From Vibrio coralliirubri (GTDB lineage Bacteria; Pseudomonadota; Gammaproteobacteria; Enterobacterales; Vibrionaceae), in the NCBI RefSeq assembly GCF_024347375.1, contig NZ_AP025470.1, forward strand, positions 620,001-684,000: a stretch of DNA of 64,000 bases. The letters run 5' to 3'. Under the pieces are notes generated by a model, which made no database searches, was not told the origin of the DNA, and saw only the letters and a list, made by a program, of their open reading frames with translations. A program made the position numbers and the translations under genes. Shown in pieces: positions 37,327-46,317 of this stretch. The stretch's first letter is position 1; the number at the start of each line of letters is the position of its first letter.

Positions 37327-37391
<65 letters not shown>

Positions 37392-37423: not shown

Positions 37424-38251
37424 TTAGTTGATTAGTTCAAAGTCCATGGGACTCACTCCACCTAGAGTCCCATGTCTTCTTACTGGATTATAATAGGTAT
37501 CGATATAAATTCGACTCTGCATCGTCATTTCTTGTCGTGAAAGCTGATCTAAGTTGTTCATCCACTCTTTCTTATATTGCGCAAAGAAGCTTTCGGAACA
37601 AGCGTTGTCCCAACAGTTTCCTTTTCTCGACATGCTGACTTTAATCTTTCGTTTACGGTGCCAACGGATCGTCTCCAACGCTCGATACTGTATACCTTGA
37701 TCGGAGTGAAACAAAAGCTCGTGACCTAAGGGCTGCCTTTGTTTCCAAGCCTTATTCAGGCTTCTTAGCACTAACTTTGCGTTATTAATGCGACTTGTCG
37801 ACCAACCAATCACTTTGCGTGAAAACAAATCTAAGACGACGCACAGGTATTGCCAACCATCAGTACAGCGCACCTGAGTTATATCTGACACCCAAACTCG
37901 ATCGGGTTTATCCACCTTAAATTGACGGGCAAGAATGTTATAGGCAGGTATAAGCGTATTTTGTCTTGGTGCTCGTCCATATCGCTTCTTGCTCGCGCAA
38001 GAGCGATAGCCCATATTCTGCAGAAGCCTCTGTACTCGCTTTTTATTACAAATAAAGCCGTTAGCGACCGCTGCTTCCCAAAGCTTTCGATAGCCTGGAA
38101 TACAATACTGAGCTTTGCTTTCTCTCCTCAAGTAGTGACTTAAAGACTCATTGTCTGTCTCTCGCTTCGATGGTTTCCTTGTTAGCCACTTGTAATAACC
38201 CGCTTTAGAAACACCCAACCATTGGCATAGTCGTATGACAGGAAGCTTCAC
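37424..38251 (-). CDS. IS3-family transposase OrfB (DDE integrase domain)
   Basis: A 275-residue product starting MKLPVIRLCQWLGVSKAGYY, with an HTH_21-like region and an rve integrase core. The DDE triad is visible: Asp in VWVSDITQV, Asp in LLFHSDQGIQY, Glu in NCWDNACSESFFAQ. It lies in the -1 frame relative to orfA and is normally made as an OrfAB fusion after slippage at CAAAAAG (plus-strand 38286-38292). It catalyses copy-out transposition of the element. Confidence 0.93.
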   Translation of the reverse strand: MKLPVIRLCQWLGVSKAGYYKWLTRKPSKRETDNESLSHYLRRESKAQYCIPGYRKLWEAAVANGFICNKKRVQRLLQNMGYRSCASKKRYGRAPRQNTLIPAYNILARQFKVDKPDRVWVSDITQVRCTDGWQYLCVVLDLFSRKVIGWSTSRINNAKLVLRSLNKAWKQRQPLGHELLFHSDQGIQYRALETIRWHRKRKIKVSMSRKGNCWDNACSESFFAQYKKEWMNNLDQLSRQEMTMQSRIYIDTYYNPVRRHGTLGGVSPMDFELIN

Positions 38252-38280
38252 ACTGGCCTTCTTAAGGATATACTCGAACC

Positions 38281-38604
38281 TTATTCTTTTTGGCTGTCGA
38301 AGAAAGCCTTCGCTTCCTTTAAGAAATCATTCTCCAGCTCTGCCATCTCAAGCTTCTTTTTCAATTGACGGATCTCTTTCTCCAGTTGTGCAAAGGATTT
38401 TTCGGGGCCGTGGTTAGGTATTGGGAGGGAGTTAGTCTTTTTCGATGTCATTTGGCATCTCCATTTAGAAAGTAGCACCGGCGATATTCCTAAGGATAGT
38501 GCTACTGACTTAACGGTATCAGAAGAATCGAGAGATCGCTGAACAGCTTCTCGTTTAAATTCGTCTGTATATTGTCTTTGTGATTTTACTTTCATGACAC
38601 TCAA
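38281..38604 (-). CDS. IS3-family OrfA (HTH protein)
   Basis: A 107-residue protein with an N-terminal helix-turn-helix (YTDEFKREAVQRSLDSSDTV, then SVALSLGISPVLLSKW) and a leucine-zipper coiled coil (about residues 72-98). Such OrfA proteins bind the terminal repeats. Its last codons, CAA AAA GAA TAA, contain the slippery stretch that would allow -1 frameshifting into orfB. Confidence 0.92.
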   Translation of the reverse strand: MSVMKVKSQRQYTDEFKREAVQRSLDSSDTVKSVALSLGISPVLLSKWRCQMTSKKTNSLPIPNHGPEKSFAQLEKEIRQLKKKLEMAELENDFLKEAKAFFDSQKE

Positions 38605-38642: not shown

Positions 38643-38688
<46 letters not shown>

Positions 38689-39022: not shown

Positions 39023-39973
39023 TTATGAATTATCCGACCATTTGAGTTCGTAATCGGTGTGGATAATCGAAAGCTCTTCTCTACCTGTATCACCAAATAA
39101 TTTAACCTGAGCCTGCATCCATTCTTCGAAACGTTTTATCTTTTCTCTACGAAAGTAACCCGGAGGCGCACACAAAAAGTAATTGTATTTAGGCTTCAGC
39201 GCGATGTTTCCGATTCGCACCAATTTCTTTTCTTGTAAATAGCGGTATACCAAGCTGTGCTTAACAAGCGCGACACCTTGAACGGATAGTGCACCTTCTA
39301 ACACAAAATGAGAGCCATCAAATTGCAATGATGTGCGGCCAGCTTTTACCCCTGCGACTTGTAACCAGAGATTCCAATCCATATCAGGCCAACGGTCTTC
39401 AATCAGTTCCGCTTTATGCAGATCGTCGATGTCATAGATACCGTGTTTCTCTTGGTAGATAGGGTGGCAAACCGGGTAAATGACCTCGTCCATCAACCAG
39501 CGTGATTCGATGTTAGGGTAATCTCCATGACCATATCTAACGCAGATATCGACATTAGAATCTTCAAATGTGACTAGCTTGTTGGTCGGCTCAATTAACA
39601 TGGATAGATCAGGGTGGCGATCACGAAAGTCGCCAATTCTTGGTACGAGCCAATGCTGAGCAAAGGAAGGCACGGTAGAGATCGACAGCTGAGTAGGGTT
39701 AGGATCTTGATTGATGCGTCTCACCCCATCTTGAATATGGGCAAAGCCTTTCTTCGCTTGCTGGTACAGTACTTCGCCTTCATGGGTCAATACTATTTTT
39801 CGGTGTTGGCGAATAAACAGATCTGCACCTAACCACTCTTCAAGTTGGCGAATTTGTTGACTGACTGCCGCTGCCGTGACAAATAGCTTTTCTGCTGCGA
39901 GTTTAAAACTGCCTGTTTCTGCCGCCGTGTAAAAGTAATAGATCCCTTGAAATGGTGGGGTTCGTTCTCTCAC
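39023..39973 (-). CDS. LysR-family regulator 1 (GcvA-like), module 1
   Basis: A 316-residue LysR-type regulator. I place the start at the GTG at 39973 (VRERTPPFQGIYYFY), preceded by AAGGAAAA; the long upstream extension is hydrophobic and unlike the family. The HTH is GSFKLAAEKLFVTAAAVSQQ followed by IRQLEEWLGADLF, about residues 20-52; the effector domain covers about 95-300. It is divergent from a DUF1127 gene, with a palindrome in between. A second LysR/DUF1127 module follows directly, and the two proteins share the GcvA-type pattern. The target is inferred to be the DUF1127 gene. Confidence 0.87.
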   Translation of the reverse strand: MRERTPPFQGIYYFYTAAETGSFKLAAEKLFVTAAAVSQQIRQLEEWLGADLFIRQHRKIVLTHEGEVLYQQAKKGFAHIQDGVRRINQDPNPTQLSISTVPSFAQHWLVPRIGDFRDRHPDLSMLIEPTNKLVTFEDSNVDICVRYGHGDYPNIESRWLMDEVIYPVCHPIYQEKHGIYDIDDLHKAELIEDRWPDMDWNLWLQVAGVKAGRTSLQFDGSHFVLEGALSVQGVALVKHSLVYRYLQEKKLVRIGNIALKPKYNYFLCAPPGYFRREKIKRFEEWMQAQVKLFGDTGREELSIIHTDYELKWSDNS

Positions 39974-40027
39974 ATTAGTTTTCCTTAACTGAATGCCAGT
40001 ATCTATCGTTTGTCGATGTTGCACTGT

Positions 40028-40044
40028 TGGTCGATTATTGACCA
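40028..40044. promoter_or_regulatory. Palindromic LysR operator candidate, module 1
   Basis: TGGTCGATTATTGACCA in the 103-base divergent gap. The module 2 counterpart at 41352-41368 is TGTTCGATTATCGAACA. They match at 14 of 17 positions, and the pair at positions 3 and 15 changes together (G/C against T/A), so symmetry is conserved. Both contain a T-N11-A core as LysR boxes do. Confidence 0.65.
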
Positions 40045-40076
40045 TAACAAAGCAAAAGATCAACAGGAGAAAGGCT

Positions 40077-40283
40077 ATGAATACGATCACAGCAACAGCA
40101 AATGCCAACCATTCATTTTTGTCATCATTATCAATTAAGAAATTCTATTCTAAATTAGGCCTGTACTTTCAAAATCGTAGAACCAGAAGGCAGCTGTCTG
40201 AGCTACCCGATTATTTACTGAGAGATATCGGGATTACGTCGGAACAAGTCGAGAAAGAACTGAAGAAGTCATTTTGGGAGTGA
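40077..40283 (+). CDS. DUF1127 small protein, module 1
   Basis: A 68-residue basic protein starting MNTITATANANHSFLSSLSI at the ATG at 40077 (GGAGAAAGG upstream); earlier in-frame starts have no binding site. The DUF1127 signature is RRTRRQLSELPDYLLRDIGI, about residues 36-55. Known short DUF1127 proteins act in RNA binding, phosphate and carbon metabolism in alphaproteobacteria; here the function is not known. It is divergent from LysR 1, its likely regulator. Confidence 0.85.
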   Translation: MNTITATANANHSFLSSLSIKKFYSKLGLYFQNRRTRRQLSELPDYLLRDIGITSEQVEKELKKSFWE

Positions 40284-40318
40284 TTCAAGGCAACGTAGCT
40301 TTTAACTCGATGTTGCTT

Positions 40319-40377
40319 TAACTCAACATAGTTTTGTCGGTGTCGAGAGGTTTACGTTACCGTACTATGTTGAGTTA
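40319..40377. repeat. 14-bp inverted repeat between the two LysR modules
   Basis: TAACTCAACATAGT (40319-40332) and ACTATGTTGAGTTA (40364-40377) are perfect complements around 31 bases. An inner CGGT/ACCG can also pair. No T-run follows directly. It lies after the DUF1127 stop and before the end of LysR 2 (minus strand), so a terminator for both is possible. Confidence 0.7.
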
Positions 40378-40413
40378 GGTTTATGGTTTATATAAAGAAG
40401 TGGGAGATGAGAT

Positions 40414-41319
40414 TTAACTCTCCAATAGCTCGTTTACTTCTTCGTGCAACCAATTGGTGAACGCAGTAATACGCTCTTTTCTCGGGGAGTTAGGGTCAAA
40501 GCATAGGTTGACTTGAACCCCAGGTGTCATGCCTATATCAAAGGGCTTCACTAGCAAGCCGCGTTCGATGAAGTCACCAGCCAAGCTGTCTGTTGCCAAG
40601 CAAACCCCATGTCCCGCCATGACCGTGGTTAACCCCATATCAAAAGTACCGACTTCCATCCACTGAATGGTGCTGCTTTGAGTCGATATGTTTGCTTGCC
40701 TAAACCATTCCTCCCACGGGAAACAACCGCCATCAAACTGAATCAGCCAACATTTGAGGAGCTGTTCAGGTGATGTGAAGTTCAAAGAGTTTGCGAGTTC
40801 AGGGGAATAAAAAGGGTAAACCGGTTCGTTGATTAGCATCTCAAGAGTCAAGCCTTCTTCAACGCATAGATCTTCACCTTGTCGAATAGCCACATCAATT
40901 TCGCCATGTTTTAAATTTGGGGTATCACACCCTGTTAGTATCTTAATTGGGATCTCTGGGTGCTTTACCGAGAACTTCCACAGCCTAGGCAGTAACCAAC
41001 GAGAAGCAAAAGAAGGGGGACTTCTAACAACAAGCAGCCCTTGAATAGGTTCTGATTGGATCTTGTTTAACCCCAGCAGAACCTCTTGAAATCCATCAGA
41101 GACATGTCTAAAAAGTGTGTGCCCTTCATGCGTCAAAATCATTGCACGCCCCTTACGAATAAAGAGCTTACATCCAACCTGTTCTTCTAACTGTCGAATC
41201 TTCTGGCTGACGGCTGCTTGAGTGACGAACAGCTCTTCAGCCGCTTTGCTGTAATTGCTCAAGCGTGCTGCAACTTCAAAGTAACGGAGGCCTGAAAGGT
41301 GACGCAGTCTATTGTCCAT
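40414..41319 (-). CDS. LysR-family regulator 2 (GcvA-like), module 2
   Basis: A 301-residue LysR-type regulator: N-terminal HTH LSNYSKAAEELFVTQAAVSQ and KIRQLEEQVGCKLFIRKGR (about residues 20-58), effector-binding domain about 90-295. The HTH is close to that of LysR 1, which suggests the two modules arose by duplication and divergence. It is divergent from a DUF1127-like gene that has been split by an IS903-type element, so its presumed target is now disrupted. The effector is unknown. Confidence 0.88.
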   Translation of the reverse strand: MDNRLRHLSGLRYFEVAARLSNYSKAAEELFVTQAAVSQKIRQLEEQVGCKLFIRKGRAMILTHEGHTLFRHVSDGFQEVLLGLNKIQSEPIQGLLVVRSPPSFASRWLLPRLWKFSVKHPEIPIKILTGCDTPNLKHGEIDVAIRQGEDLCVEEGLTLEMLINEPVYPFYSPELANSLNFTSPEQLLKCWLIQFDGGCFPWEEWFRQANISTQSSTIQWMEVGTFDMGLTTVMAGHGVCLATDSLAGDFIERGLLVKPFDIGMTPGVQVNLCFDPNSPRKERITAFTNWLHEEVNELLES

Positions 41320-41351
41320 AATCTCAGCTTATAGTTCTTGTTAATAATGGT

Positions 41352-41368
41352 TGTTCGATTATCGAACA
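41352..41368. promoter_or_regulatory. Palindromic LysR operator candidate, module 2
   Basis: TGTTCGAT-T-ATCGAACA is a perfect 8-1-8 palindrome in the 99-base divergent gap between LysR 2 and the split gene; it is the homologue of 40028-40044. Confidence 0.7.
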
Positions 41369-41455
41369 GGTTGTTTTCATAATAGCGATAAATAAACAGG
41401 GAATACAAGAGAGAGAACATGAAAGCAATAACCTGTTGGGCCGGAAGGTTTGTTA

Positions 41456-42509
41456 GGCTTTGTTGCGTAATTCAATGGAACTAAATCAAGAACCTACGAT
41501 CTGATCAGCTACCTCCACTCTATCTCGTAGTCCTATGCCTAAGCCTCGTTATAAAACAACCAACTGGAAGCAATACAACCGATCACTCATTAACCGTGGT
41601 TCTCTGACTTTTTGGATTGATGAAGAAGCAATAAGCGGATGGGCGCAAAGCAAACAGAATAAGCGCGGTAGGCCGCGTCGGTTCAGTGATTTAGCTATCA
41701 CGACAGCACTCATGGTCAAACGAGTTTTTTCTATGCCATTGAGAGCGCTGCAAGGATTTATCGACTCGATATTTAGGTTAGCCCATGTACCGTTAAGTTG
41801 TCCGCATTACACCTGCATCAGTCGTAGAGCCAAGCAAGTTGAGGTTTCATTTAAGACTAAAACGAGAGGAGCGATACAGCACCTAGCCATTGATGCTACT
41901 GGCCTTAAGGTTTATGGCGAAGGTGAATGGAAAGTCAAAAAACATGGGACGGATGGCAAGCGTAGAGTCTGGCGAAAGCTGCATATTGCAGTCGATACCA
42001 ACACTCATGAGATCATTGCCGCCGAGCTAAGTTTATCGACGGTTACAGATGGAGAAGTACTCCCGAACTTACTGAAACAAACACGCCGAAGTATCCTTGA
42101 GGTGTCTGGTGATGGCGCTTACGACACGAGAGCGTGTCACGCTGCTATTAAGATTAAGGGAGCTATTGCGCTTATTCCCCCAAGAGAAGGGGCTGCCTTC
42201 TGGGAGCGTGGTCACCCTCGAAATTTCGCCGTGGGTTGCCAGAAATTATACGACTCAAATAAGTATTGGAAAGAGCGGTATGGATACCACAAACGTTCAC
42301 TCTCAGAAACAGCGATGTATCGAGTTAAACAGTTGCTAGGAGGGAAACTGAGCTTAAGAAATTACAATGCCCAGGTGGGTGAAACTTACGCGATGATAAA
42401 AGCGTTGAACAAGCTTACTGGGTTAGGTATGCCTGAAACTTGTCGTATTGACTAAGAAACAAGCGAAACGGGTTGGCTCTATCTCTAAATTTAATTACGC
42501 AACAAAGCC
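41456..42509 (+). mobile_element. IS5-family, IS903-group insertion sequence
   Basis: 1,054 bp. Terminal repeats GGCTTTGTTGCGTAATT (41456-41472) and its complement (42493-42509) are perfect over 17 bp. The flanking direct repeat GGTTTGTTA (41447-41455 and 42510-42518) is a 9-bp target duplication, the size made by the IS903 group. The transposase is intact and the ends are undiverged, so the insertion is recent. Confidence 0.96.
41535..42455 (+). CDS. IS903-group transposase
   Basis: A 306-residue DDE transposase, the length of the IS903 enzyme (307). It starts MPKPRYKTTNWKQYNRSLIN. The DDE residues are visible: Asp in QHLAIDATGLKVYGEGEW, Asp in VSGDGAYDTRAC, Glu in KRSLSETAMYRVKQLLG. No frameshift or stop is present, so the element may still move. 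It fills almost the whole element. Confidence 0.96.
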   Translation: MPKPRYKTTNWKQYNRSLINRGSLTFWIDEEAISGWAQSKQNKRGRPRRFSDLAITTALMVKRVFSMPLRALQGFIDSIFRLAHVPLSCPHYTCISRRAKQVEVSFKTKTRGAIQHLAIDATGLKVYGEGEWKVKKHGTDGKRRVWRKLHIAVDTNTHEIIAAELSLSTVTDGEVLPNLLKQTRRSILEVSGDGAYDTRACHAAIKIKGAIALIPPREGAAFWERGHPRNFAVGCQKLYDSNKYWKERYGYHKRSLSETAMYRVKQLLGGKLSLRNYNAQVGETYAMIKALNKLTGLGMPETCRID

Positions 42510-42684
42510 GGTTTGTTACTCAGGCACTTAAAATCAATGATAATACTAAGGTGAGGAAGGCGACTAAATCGAGACAAGTTATCTGTTCGGAATCGTTAAG
42601 TCATCGAATGAGAAATGATATCGGCTTAGATTGCGAGAGTAGTGATGCTGCGGATTATACTAAGTACTTATAATGTGAGCTTAC

Positions 42685-45440: not shown

Positions 45441-45614
45441 ATGGATAAGTTTTTGAATAATTGTAAAGAATTCATGAAAGATGAAGAAGGGTTGACTGTA
45501 ATCGAGTATGTAATCGGTGCAGCTTTATTGGTATTAGGTTTGACAACCGTATTTTCTGGTTTAGGGAATACTCTAGCAAATAAATTAAACGCTATTGTTG
45601 CCAATGTTGGTTAG
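45441..45614 (+). CDS. flp: Flp-type prepilin 1
   Basis: A 57-residue prepilin too short for ordinary ORF calling. GGAGAGG precedes the ATG. The leader MDKFLNNCKEFMKDEEG ends in Gly before LTVIEYVIGAA, giving the Flp cleavage site Gly|xxxxEY. A 20-residue hydrophobic helix (GAALLVLGLTTVFSGLG) and a short tail follow. It is the likely major pilin of the Tad pilus. It is followed by a second prepilin after 10 bases. The upstream 194 bases hold a GTTTAC-AG-GTAAAC inverted repeat (45394-45407) but no clear promoter by eye. Confidence 0.9.
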   Translation: MDKFLNNCKEFMKDEEGLTVIEYVIGAALLVLGLTTVFSGLGNTLANKLNAIVANVG

Positions 45615-45624
45615 TGGTTGAGTT

Positions 45625-45777
45625 ATGAATAACAATAGACTGAAACGACAATCGGGGTTAACAACGGTTGAGTATGTGATTGGCGCAGCCTCACTGGTTC
45701 TTGCTGTTGGACTAGTTTTCTCTGGAATGGCAACGGCTTTGCTCAGTAAGTTTCAGAGCATTATATCGAGTGTATAA
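45625..45777 (+). CDS. Flp-type prepilin 2
   Basis: A 50-residue prepilin starting MNNNRLKRQSG, with the cleavage site Gly|LTTVEYVIGAAS and a hydrophobic segment. The leader is short and basic (11 residues), unlike the longer leader of prepilin 1, and the mature part differs from prepilin 1 outside the conserved start. It may be a minor or tip pilin. It ends 9 bases before the peptidase gene. Confidence 0.87.
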   Translation: MNNNRLKRQSGLTTVEYVIGAASLVLAVGLVFSGMATALLSKFQSIISSV

Positions 45778-45786
45778 ATAGAGTAT

Positions 45787-46317
45787 ATGATTAATGAGCC
45801 TTCAGCTTTTTGGGCATTGCTAATTGCAGTTTCGGTATACGATGTTGAGAAACATCGTATACCGAACAAAATATTGATTTTCTTTTTGTTTGTTTACTTT
45901 TTATCAATGTTTGACGGCAATTATACCTTTGATGTTTTTTTTATGTCCTTCGTTGGATTTGTGGTGTTTTTTTGTTTTGGATTACTCTTATACTTTTTAA
46001 GAGCTATGTCGGCAGGAGATGTGAAGCTATTAGGTATTGTGGGGATGTATCTCGGGTGGGGACAACTACTTGATGCATCGTACTTTATCTTACTTTCTTC
46101 TGGAGTGATCGGGACTTTCTACCTGCTATATAACTTTTCCAACTCGAACAGTCTTAGTATCAAAGGCTATTTTGAAAATAAGCTAATTATGCTTGGTGGG
46201 GTAGCACCAGTATTAAATGAAAGTGCTAGCTTGCACGCTAGGTATTCAAATAAGGTGACGATGCCTTTTGCACCCTCTGTTGTAATGGGATTAGCGATGT
46301 ATAGCTACTTTACTTAA
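45787..46317 (+). CDS. tadV: TadV-type prepilin peptidase (A24 family)
   Basis: A 176-residue inner-membrane aspartyl protease that removes the Flp leaders. Catalytic aspartates: Asp19 in SVYDVEKHRIPN and Asp78 in MSAGDVKLLG. The second motif is SAGD where most family members have GAGD. About five hydrophobic segments are seen. The family lacks the long cytoplasmic and methylation domain of PilD, as here. It is translated just after prepilin 2. Confidence 0.9.
   Translation: MINEPSAFWALLIAVSVYDVEKHRIPNKILIFFLFVYFLSMFDGNYTFDVFFMSFVGFVVFFCFGLLLYFLRAMSAGDVKLLGIVGMYLGWGQLLDASYFILLSSGVIGTFYLLYNFSNSNSLSIKGYFENKLIMLGGVAPVLNESASLHARYSNKVTMPFAPSVVMGLAMYSYFT

Follow-up and report, generated by a model that had tools for sequence, protein, structure and literature searches.

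Within a 64,000-nucleotide stretch of the Vibrio coralliirubri genome (NCBI RefSeq assembly GCF_024347375.1, contig NZ_AP025470.1, positions 620,001 to 684,000 of the forward strand; hereafter the window, from whose first letter all coordinates are counted), two consecutive modules each set a gene for a LysR-type regulator divergently from a gene for a small protein of the DUF1127 type. We propose, with a probability of about two in three, that each module is a divergent switch of the GcvA type, in which the LysR protein activates the small-protein gene that it faces; the proposal leans on analogy with GcvA. The gene pairing, the conserved elements between the genes, their spacing and the insertion that interrupts the second module are established as far as sequence goes.

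Two GcvA-like LysR genes face small genes of the DUF1127 type

LysR1 (39023..39973, minus strand, 316 amino acids, GTG start) and LysR2 (40414..41319, minus strand, 301 amino acids) both pass the Pfam cut-offs for an N-terminal HTH_1 and a C-terminal LysR_substrate domain, and are thus LysR-type transcriptional regulators. NCBIfam GcvA is the top model for LysR1 at 259.3 bits and gives 231.6 bits with LysR2, in both cases under its 288-bit cut-off. Small gene 1 (40077..40283, plus strand) encodes a protein of 68 amino acids that passes the cut-off of PF06568, the DUF1127 family (42.9 versus 23.3 bits), and is the sole match to that model in this genome at E ≤ 0.1. The original prediction is supported in that both LysR genes are GcvA-like and both stand divergent to a small gene carrying a motif of the DUF1127 type; the pairing of LysR1 with DUF1127 is conserved in related genomes.

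Matches to LysR1 were found in 126 of 227 genomes of the genus (E ≤ 1e-80) and matches to LysR2 in 43 of 99 (E ≤ 1e-60). Genome searches here and below scored a limited number of candidates (at most 20 per genome in the class-level DUF1127 search), so that their counts are lower bounds. A DUF1127-type open reading frame lies some 90–120 bp from the LysR1 start in all 30 of the best-scoring genus loci, the window included and L023 being truncated. The best 80 of 165 LysR1 relatives were taken as named loci, spanning Vibrio, Photobacterium, Salinivibrio, Agarivorans and Aliagarivorans, and in 74 of these a DUF1127-type frame stands divergent from LysR1 (67 computed, seven by eye). No such frame was seen in L133, L148, L149, L156 and L157; in L129 the DUF1127 codons are readable by eye, with the gap and the LysR start missing. 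LysR2 adjoins LysR1 in 33 of the 80.

Conserved elements between LysR1 and small gene 1

Two elements stand out in gap 1, the spacer between LysR1 and small gene 1. From the 80 named loci, 15 were left out of the gap alignments (65 compared) and 13 out of the identity and pair tests, on the grounds that the matched start was uncertain or not a start codon, or that the locus was a paralogue or a distant relative. First, an inverted repeat at 39974..39988 (ATTAG-n5-CTTAA in the window, TTAAG-n5-CTTAA in many relatives), which we propose as the main LysR1 site and call the anchor, has a mean identity to the window of 0.89 over positions 0–16 in 37 other non-redundant gap-1 sequences. Second, the box ATCGTTTG (40005..40012, plus strand, +31 to +38 from the LysR1 start) reaches 0.96 in the same sequences. 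The stretch that joins anchor and box averages 0.61, and the other gap-1 spacer 0.31–0.36. TCGTTTG occurs within 75 bp of the LysR1 start in 73 of the 80 named loci, and exactly at +32 to +38 in 65.

The box overlaps a proposed −35 element of small gene 1 (TTGTCG, 40010–40015), and the proposed −10 would be GATTAT (40033–40038), a spacing that yields TTGTCG-17-GATTAT; these promoter assignments were made by eye. An ATTATT-like core lies exactly at +60 in 52 of the 65 loci compared and is spelled ATTATT in 45. Across the genome, CTTAA-N14..18-ATCGTTTG occurs at five sites against one for a control; one of the five is gap 1 itself, three lie inside open frames and one falls between pgk-like and fba-like genes, as judged from open-reading-frame lists. 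The box was found at one of 25 further LysR loci in the genome, for which starts were estimated from partial matches.

The box often accompanies divergent LysR genes beyond Vibrio

DUF1127 was found in 29 of 370 genomes of the class and 34 of 148 of the order. A LysR hit accompanies 17 of 53 class-level DUF1127 loci, 16 of them divergently, and 11 of 29 order-level loci, five of these being Vibrio. In this survey, a LysR counted as divergent if the two genes pointed outward on opposite strands and lay within about 1.5 kb, with intervening genes allowed, and the scan covered the 450 bases upstream of the DUF1127 domain match; the class sample took 16 of 17 further hits, the remaining one adjoining L239, and the order sample comprised 29 loci.

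Among the DUF1127 genes surveyed outside Vibrio, 22 have a divergent LysR, and TCGTTTG precedes 13 of them, in 7 of their 11 families; of 55 with no divergent LysR detected, 3 have it (p about 1e-6, Fisher values disregarding relatedness). Shuffling predicts 0.5 occurrences in the 22 pairs, and the reverse-complement motif is present in none of them. With a looser box pattern the counts are 16/22 versus 4/55, and with a middle one 11/22 versus 3/55. The 55 loci may hide LysR neighbours; they include L266, which has a non-divergent LysR and supplies one of the three boxes. The survey includes near relatives, its loci L217 and L224 coincide with or closely resemble members of the set of 80, and its locus L177 scores under the Pfam cut-off.

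The second module and its broken small gene

Gap 2, between LysR2 and small gene 2, also holds conserved elements, and these follow the small gene. Among non-redundant gap-2 sequences, the element CTTATA (41328..41333 in the window, plus strand, +8 from the LysR2 start) is found in all 14 that have small gene 2 and in 3 of the 23 that lack it; GTT[CG]G at +33 is found in 13 of 14 versus 2 of 23 (Fisher 3.8e-7, relatedness again ignored). Both box and gene are missing from 21 of the 37 non-redundant gap-2 loci, and two loci keep the box without an intact small gene, namely the window itself, with its insertion, and L129. A CATAAT hexamer (41378..41383, plus strand), 25 bases past the start of GTTCG, was assigned by eye as the proposed −10 of small gene 2, its consensus being cATAATA in the 14 sequences with that gene. 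In either gap of the window, the GTTYG box starts 25 bases ahead of the −10-like hexamer (34 to 59 in gap 1 and 33 to 58 in gap 2). Comparison of the two gaps suggests that what they have in common is an anchor within +8 to +14, a GTT[T/C]G box at +33/34 and a −10 at +58/59, and not the 17-bp palindrome noted in each of them.

Small gene 2 is broken in this genome because an IS5-family element interrupts it. The 5′ piece (41419..41455, plus strand) starts at +99, like intact relatives such as L080, L083 and L084. The insertion sequence follows at 41456..42509 (plus strand; transposase 41535–42455, transpos_IS5_2 374 bits), and 42510..42673 (plus strand) contains the second copy of a 9-bp target duplication (ggtttgtta, 41447–41455 and 42510–42518, read from the sequence) and the 3′ piece of the gene with its DUF1127-like motif. 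Family transposase, terminal inverted repeats and target duplication assign 41456–42509 to the IS5 family; the transposase model, terminal repeats and 9-bp duplication are common to IS903-like elements, and the insertion, which is not matched to a named insertion sequence, is presumably of the IS903 group. At least 40 full, 100% identical copies, including that of the window, occur in the 5.74-Mb genome (40 of 89 candidates scored), and judged from these copies the element has undergone a recent burst in this genome. The second small gene of the original prediction does exist, but the frame given for it (42473–42673) is a TTG frame that starts inside the insertion sequence, the true start being 41419. 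In this genome LysR2 no longer has its neighbouring target. In L036 (genome G087) the gap-2 sequence stops at the GTTCG box and gives way to another open frame, which suggests a second, independent hit on module 2.

Ten intact small gene 2 relatives gave no PF06568 match at E ≤ 10, and two of the ten gave chance-level matches to unrelated families (E 0.09 and 0.18). Compared by hhalign with a profile of the module-1 DUF1127 proteins, small gene 2 aligned over 47 columns with 96% probability (E 3.6e-9). By these profile comparisons its product is DUF1127-like, not DUF1127 proper; small gene 2 products mostly end in a DYTKYL-like sequence, whereas the module-1 proteins carry FW near the end.

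LysR2 outlasts both the small gene and the box, for example in L045–L047, L049–L054 and L056–L059, where it apparently adjoins an AMP-binding gene (by eye). Because LysR2 persists after small gene 2 and its box have vanished, it probably has another role in such genomes.

Alternative explanations

Several observations weigh against a LysR-controlled switch in these modules. The anchor covers the likely ribosome-binding site of LysR1, and part of its conservation may stem from translation because of this overlap. The proposed small-gene promoter is missing from the output of a sigma-70 scan, which reports a LysR1-directed promoter whose −10 is the same core; the two hits of the scan do not exceed the shuffle mean of 2.8. 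In 13 of the 65 gap-1 loci none of four core spellings occurs near +60. TCGTTTG is absent from 9 of the 22 non-Vibrio divergent pairs (6 under the loosest pattern, 11 under the middle one), and the LysR1 paralogue L149, beside which no small gene was seen, still carries it. Lastly, a tree keeps LysR1 and LysR2 apart, although its deep forks are weak and its branches long.

The conserved block of gap 1 could instead be mainly the messenger RNA leader, ribosome-binding site and promoter of LysR1, with no LysR site in it. The block indeed reaches the LysR1 start and includes its likely ribosome-binding site, and the core of palindrome 1 reads on the minus strand as AATAAT, a promoter-like hexamer directed at LysR1. 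A ribosome-binding site cannot, however, account for ATCGTTTG, which lies 31 bp away at 0.96 identity; the box also precedes DUF1127 genes of other families; and gap 1 has no Rfam match at E ≤ 1. We consider this explanation improbable, if the best of the alternatives.

The original prediction offered a different model, in which the 17-bp palindrome is an operator for both LysR proteins, tuned by a covarying base pair after duplication. The palindromes themselves are present as described: TGGTCGATTATTGACCA at 40028..40044, whose core is the proposed −10 region of small gene 1, and TGTTCGATTATCGAACA at 41352..41368, whose left half contains the conserved GTTCG (41353–41357, +33). Their bases agree at 14 of 17 positions, and the pair at positions 3/15 is complementary in each, as G/C and T/A. 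Among 400 dinucleotide shuffles of both gaps, 14 yielded any 17-mer pair alike at 14 or more positions and none yielded two palindromes (at least 7/8 pairs) alike at 14/17; the palindrome pair therefore exceeds chance within this one genome. Palindrome 1 also holds 7–8 pairs in seven of the eight close relatives L003–L010 (six pairs in L004), and one gap-1 pair, 55/69, is complementary more often than under permutation (27/38 versus 17.9, p = 0.001), as is one pair in another register at p = 0.047, among 35 tests.

Wider comparison does not bear out a common operator. The palindromes begin at +54 from the LysR1 start and +32 from the LysR2 start, and thus occupy non-homologous positions, their offsets from the LysR start differing by 22 bp. 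In other non-redundant sequences, at least 7/8 pairs are kept at the place of palindrome 1 in only 2 of 37 gaps, and at that of palindrome 2 in 3 of 15, where the right half is mostly unconserved; these 15, drawn from 36 other non-redundant loci, comprised L129 and every sequence with small gene 2 (14), and the test was confined to loci retaining gene or box. The predicted covarying pair is complementary in 14 of 38 gap-1 sequences against 11.1 expected, which is not significant (p = 0.18). Adjoining elements are far better conserved than the palindrome, whose identity to the window in the 37 other gap-1 sequences is 0.86 in the core, 0.59 in the left arm and 0.43 in the right. We regard a shared palindromic operator as distinctly unlikely.

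Two further functions for the palindromes were considered and rejected. As a genome-wide operator, the palindrome with up to two mismatches gives 28 + 21 sites, compared to 28 + 19 for a reversed control, and no LysR/small-gene pair was seen (open-reading-frame lists, by eye) at a third exact site (L064) or at four one-mismatch sites (L065–L068). As a terminator, palindrome 2 is among four terminator-like sites (shuffle mean 1.4), yet it lies upstream of small gene 2, and no plus-strand gene was seen just before it.

The duplicated regulatory unit of that model likewise finds no support as a recent event. LysR1 and LysR2 are just 31% identical and so show no sign of recent duplication, which was rejected on this identity together with the long-branched tree. 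An old duplication may lie behind the two regulators, since LysR2 is the best match of LysR1 in the genome, though by a small margin (143 bits versus 139.7 and 137.9 for the next two).

We likewise hold it distinctly unlikely that the LysR proteins mainly regulate other, distant genes with the small genes as incidental neighbours: many Vibrio do hold LysR2 without small gene 2 (the 21 of 37 loci above), and there LysR2 must act otherwise, but DUF1127 is seldom missing beside LysR1, and the gap-2 box tracks small gene 2.

Nearby features

Perfect TGCGAGA heptamer arrays occur at 37327–37391 (9.3 copies) and 38643–38688 (6.6 copies), flanking a transposase pair at 37424–38604 (HTH_Tnp_1, rve). 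Because similar arrays stand on both sides, the arrangement suggests that the transposase pair inserted into, or carries, the heptamer repeat. At 45441–46317, two short open frames resembling Flp-type pilins precede a prepilin-peptidase-like frame (by eye); a tad pilus locus probably begins here.

Discussion

In the GcvA-type switch that we favour for each module, the LysR protein would bind the anchor at its own start together with a second box overlapping the −35 of the facing small gene. With ligand, LysR1 would contact the box over the −35, activating the DUF1127 gene and holding down its own expression, and LysR2 would do likewise for small gene 2. Module 1, being intact, would yield a DUF1127 protein; module 2 would give a diverged DUF1127-like protein, had its gene not been broken here by the IS5-family insertion. 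The promoter positions, binding, activation and autorepression are inferred from the position and conservation of the elements and from the precedent of GcvA and gcvB.

In the published account, the inverted repeats of Escherichia coli GcvA (ATTAG-n5-CTAAT) lie at −65 and −43 relative to the start of gcvB, and gcvA–gcvB combines a divergent small-RNA target with GcvA autorepression (PMC5002191). GcvA is the top-scoring named LysR family for the window, the divergent small-regulator target is common to both systems, and the anchor ATTAG/TTAAG-n5-CTTAA resembles the GcvA repeat (PMC5002191). With transcription starts placed by eye, the window anchor and box would occupy places matching a GcvA-type pattern, with a repeat near −65 and a second site by the −35. 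The systems differ in that the window LysRs fall below the GcvA cut-off, the target is a small protein and not a small RNA, and the second box ATCGTTTG is no GcvA repeat.

Control of DUF1127 genes by a LysR protein has a precedent in VtlR/LsrB of Brucella and Agrobacterium. According to the accessible portions of the two reports, VtlR, a LysR regulator, positively regulates three DUF1127 genes in Brucella (PMC12595884), and Agrobacterium VtlR directly activates atu1667, to which two of those Brucella genes are orthologous (PMC7486931). The likeness lies in positive regulation of small DUF1127-type genes by a LysR. In the same portions, by contrast, VtlR targets include small RNAs, the VtlR box GCAT-N3-TG-N3-T is another sequence, and no divergent vtlR–DUF1127 pair is described. 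Because VtlR regulates DUF1127 genes, the original claim that such a circuit is undescribed is just partly right: LysR control of DUF1127 was already known, and what we did not find described is the divergent gammaproteobacterial pair. In the literature searched, which included few subscription papers, neither the divergent arrangement of LysR and DUF1127 genes nor the TCGTTTG box was found described for Gammaproteobacteria, and no report of such a pair in Vibrio was met with. As a Pfam DUF1127 protein, the product of small gene 1 joins the small proteins CcaF1, YjiS and the Agrobacterium SDPs.

More speculatively, and less likely than not, divergent LysR/DUF1127 pairs might form a regulatory cassette found across the class Gammaproteobacteria, whose particular operator overlaps the −35 (TCGTTTG, 20 bases, −10) and is retained even though the LysR proteins have only about 23–43% local identity. 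Vibrio would then hold a second, strongly diverged small-protein branch that loses operator and gene together, and a feedback of the small protein on the LysR that it is paired with is conceivable.

The palindromes carry a lesson, in that a tidy palindrome in a single genome can overlook the elements that relatives conserve. Work in several bacteria has linked DUF1127 proteins to RNA turnover, phosphate metabolism and biofilm traits (PMC12501420, PMC12218461). Little on the control of DUF1127 genes outside the alpha-proteobacteria was found in the literature searched. If the proposed switch is true, a neighbouring regulator whose conserved operator can be recognised would offer a direct route to DUF1127 inducers.

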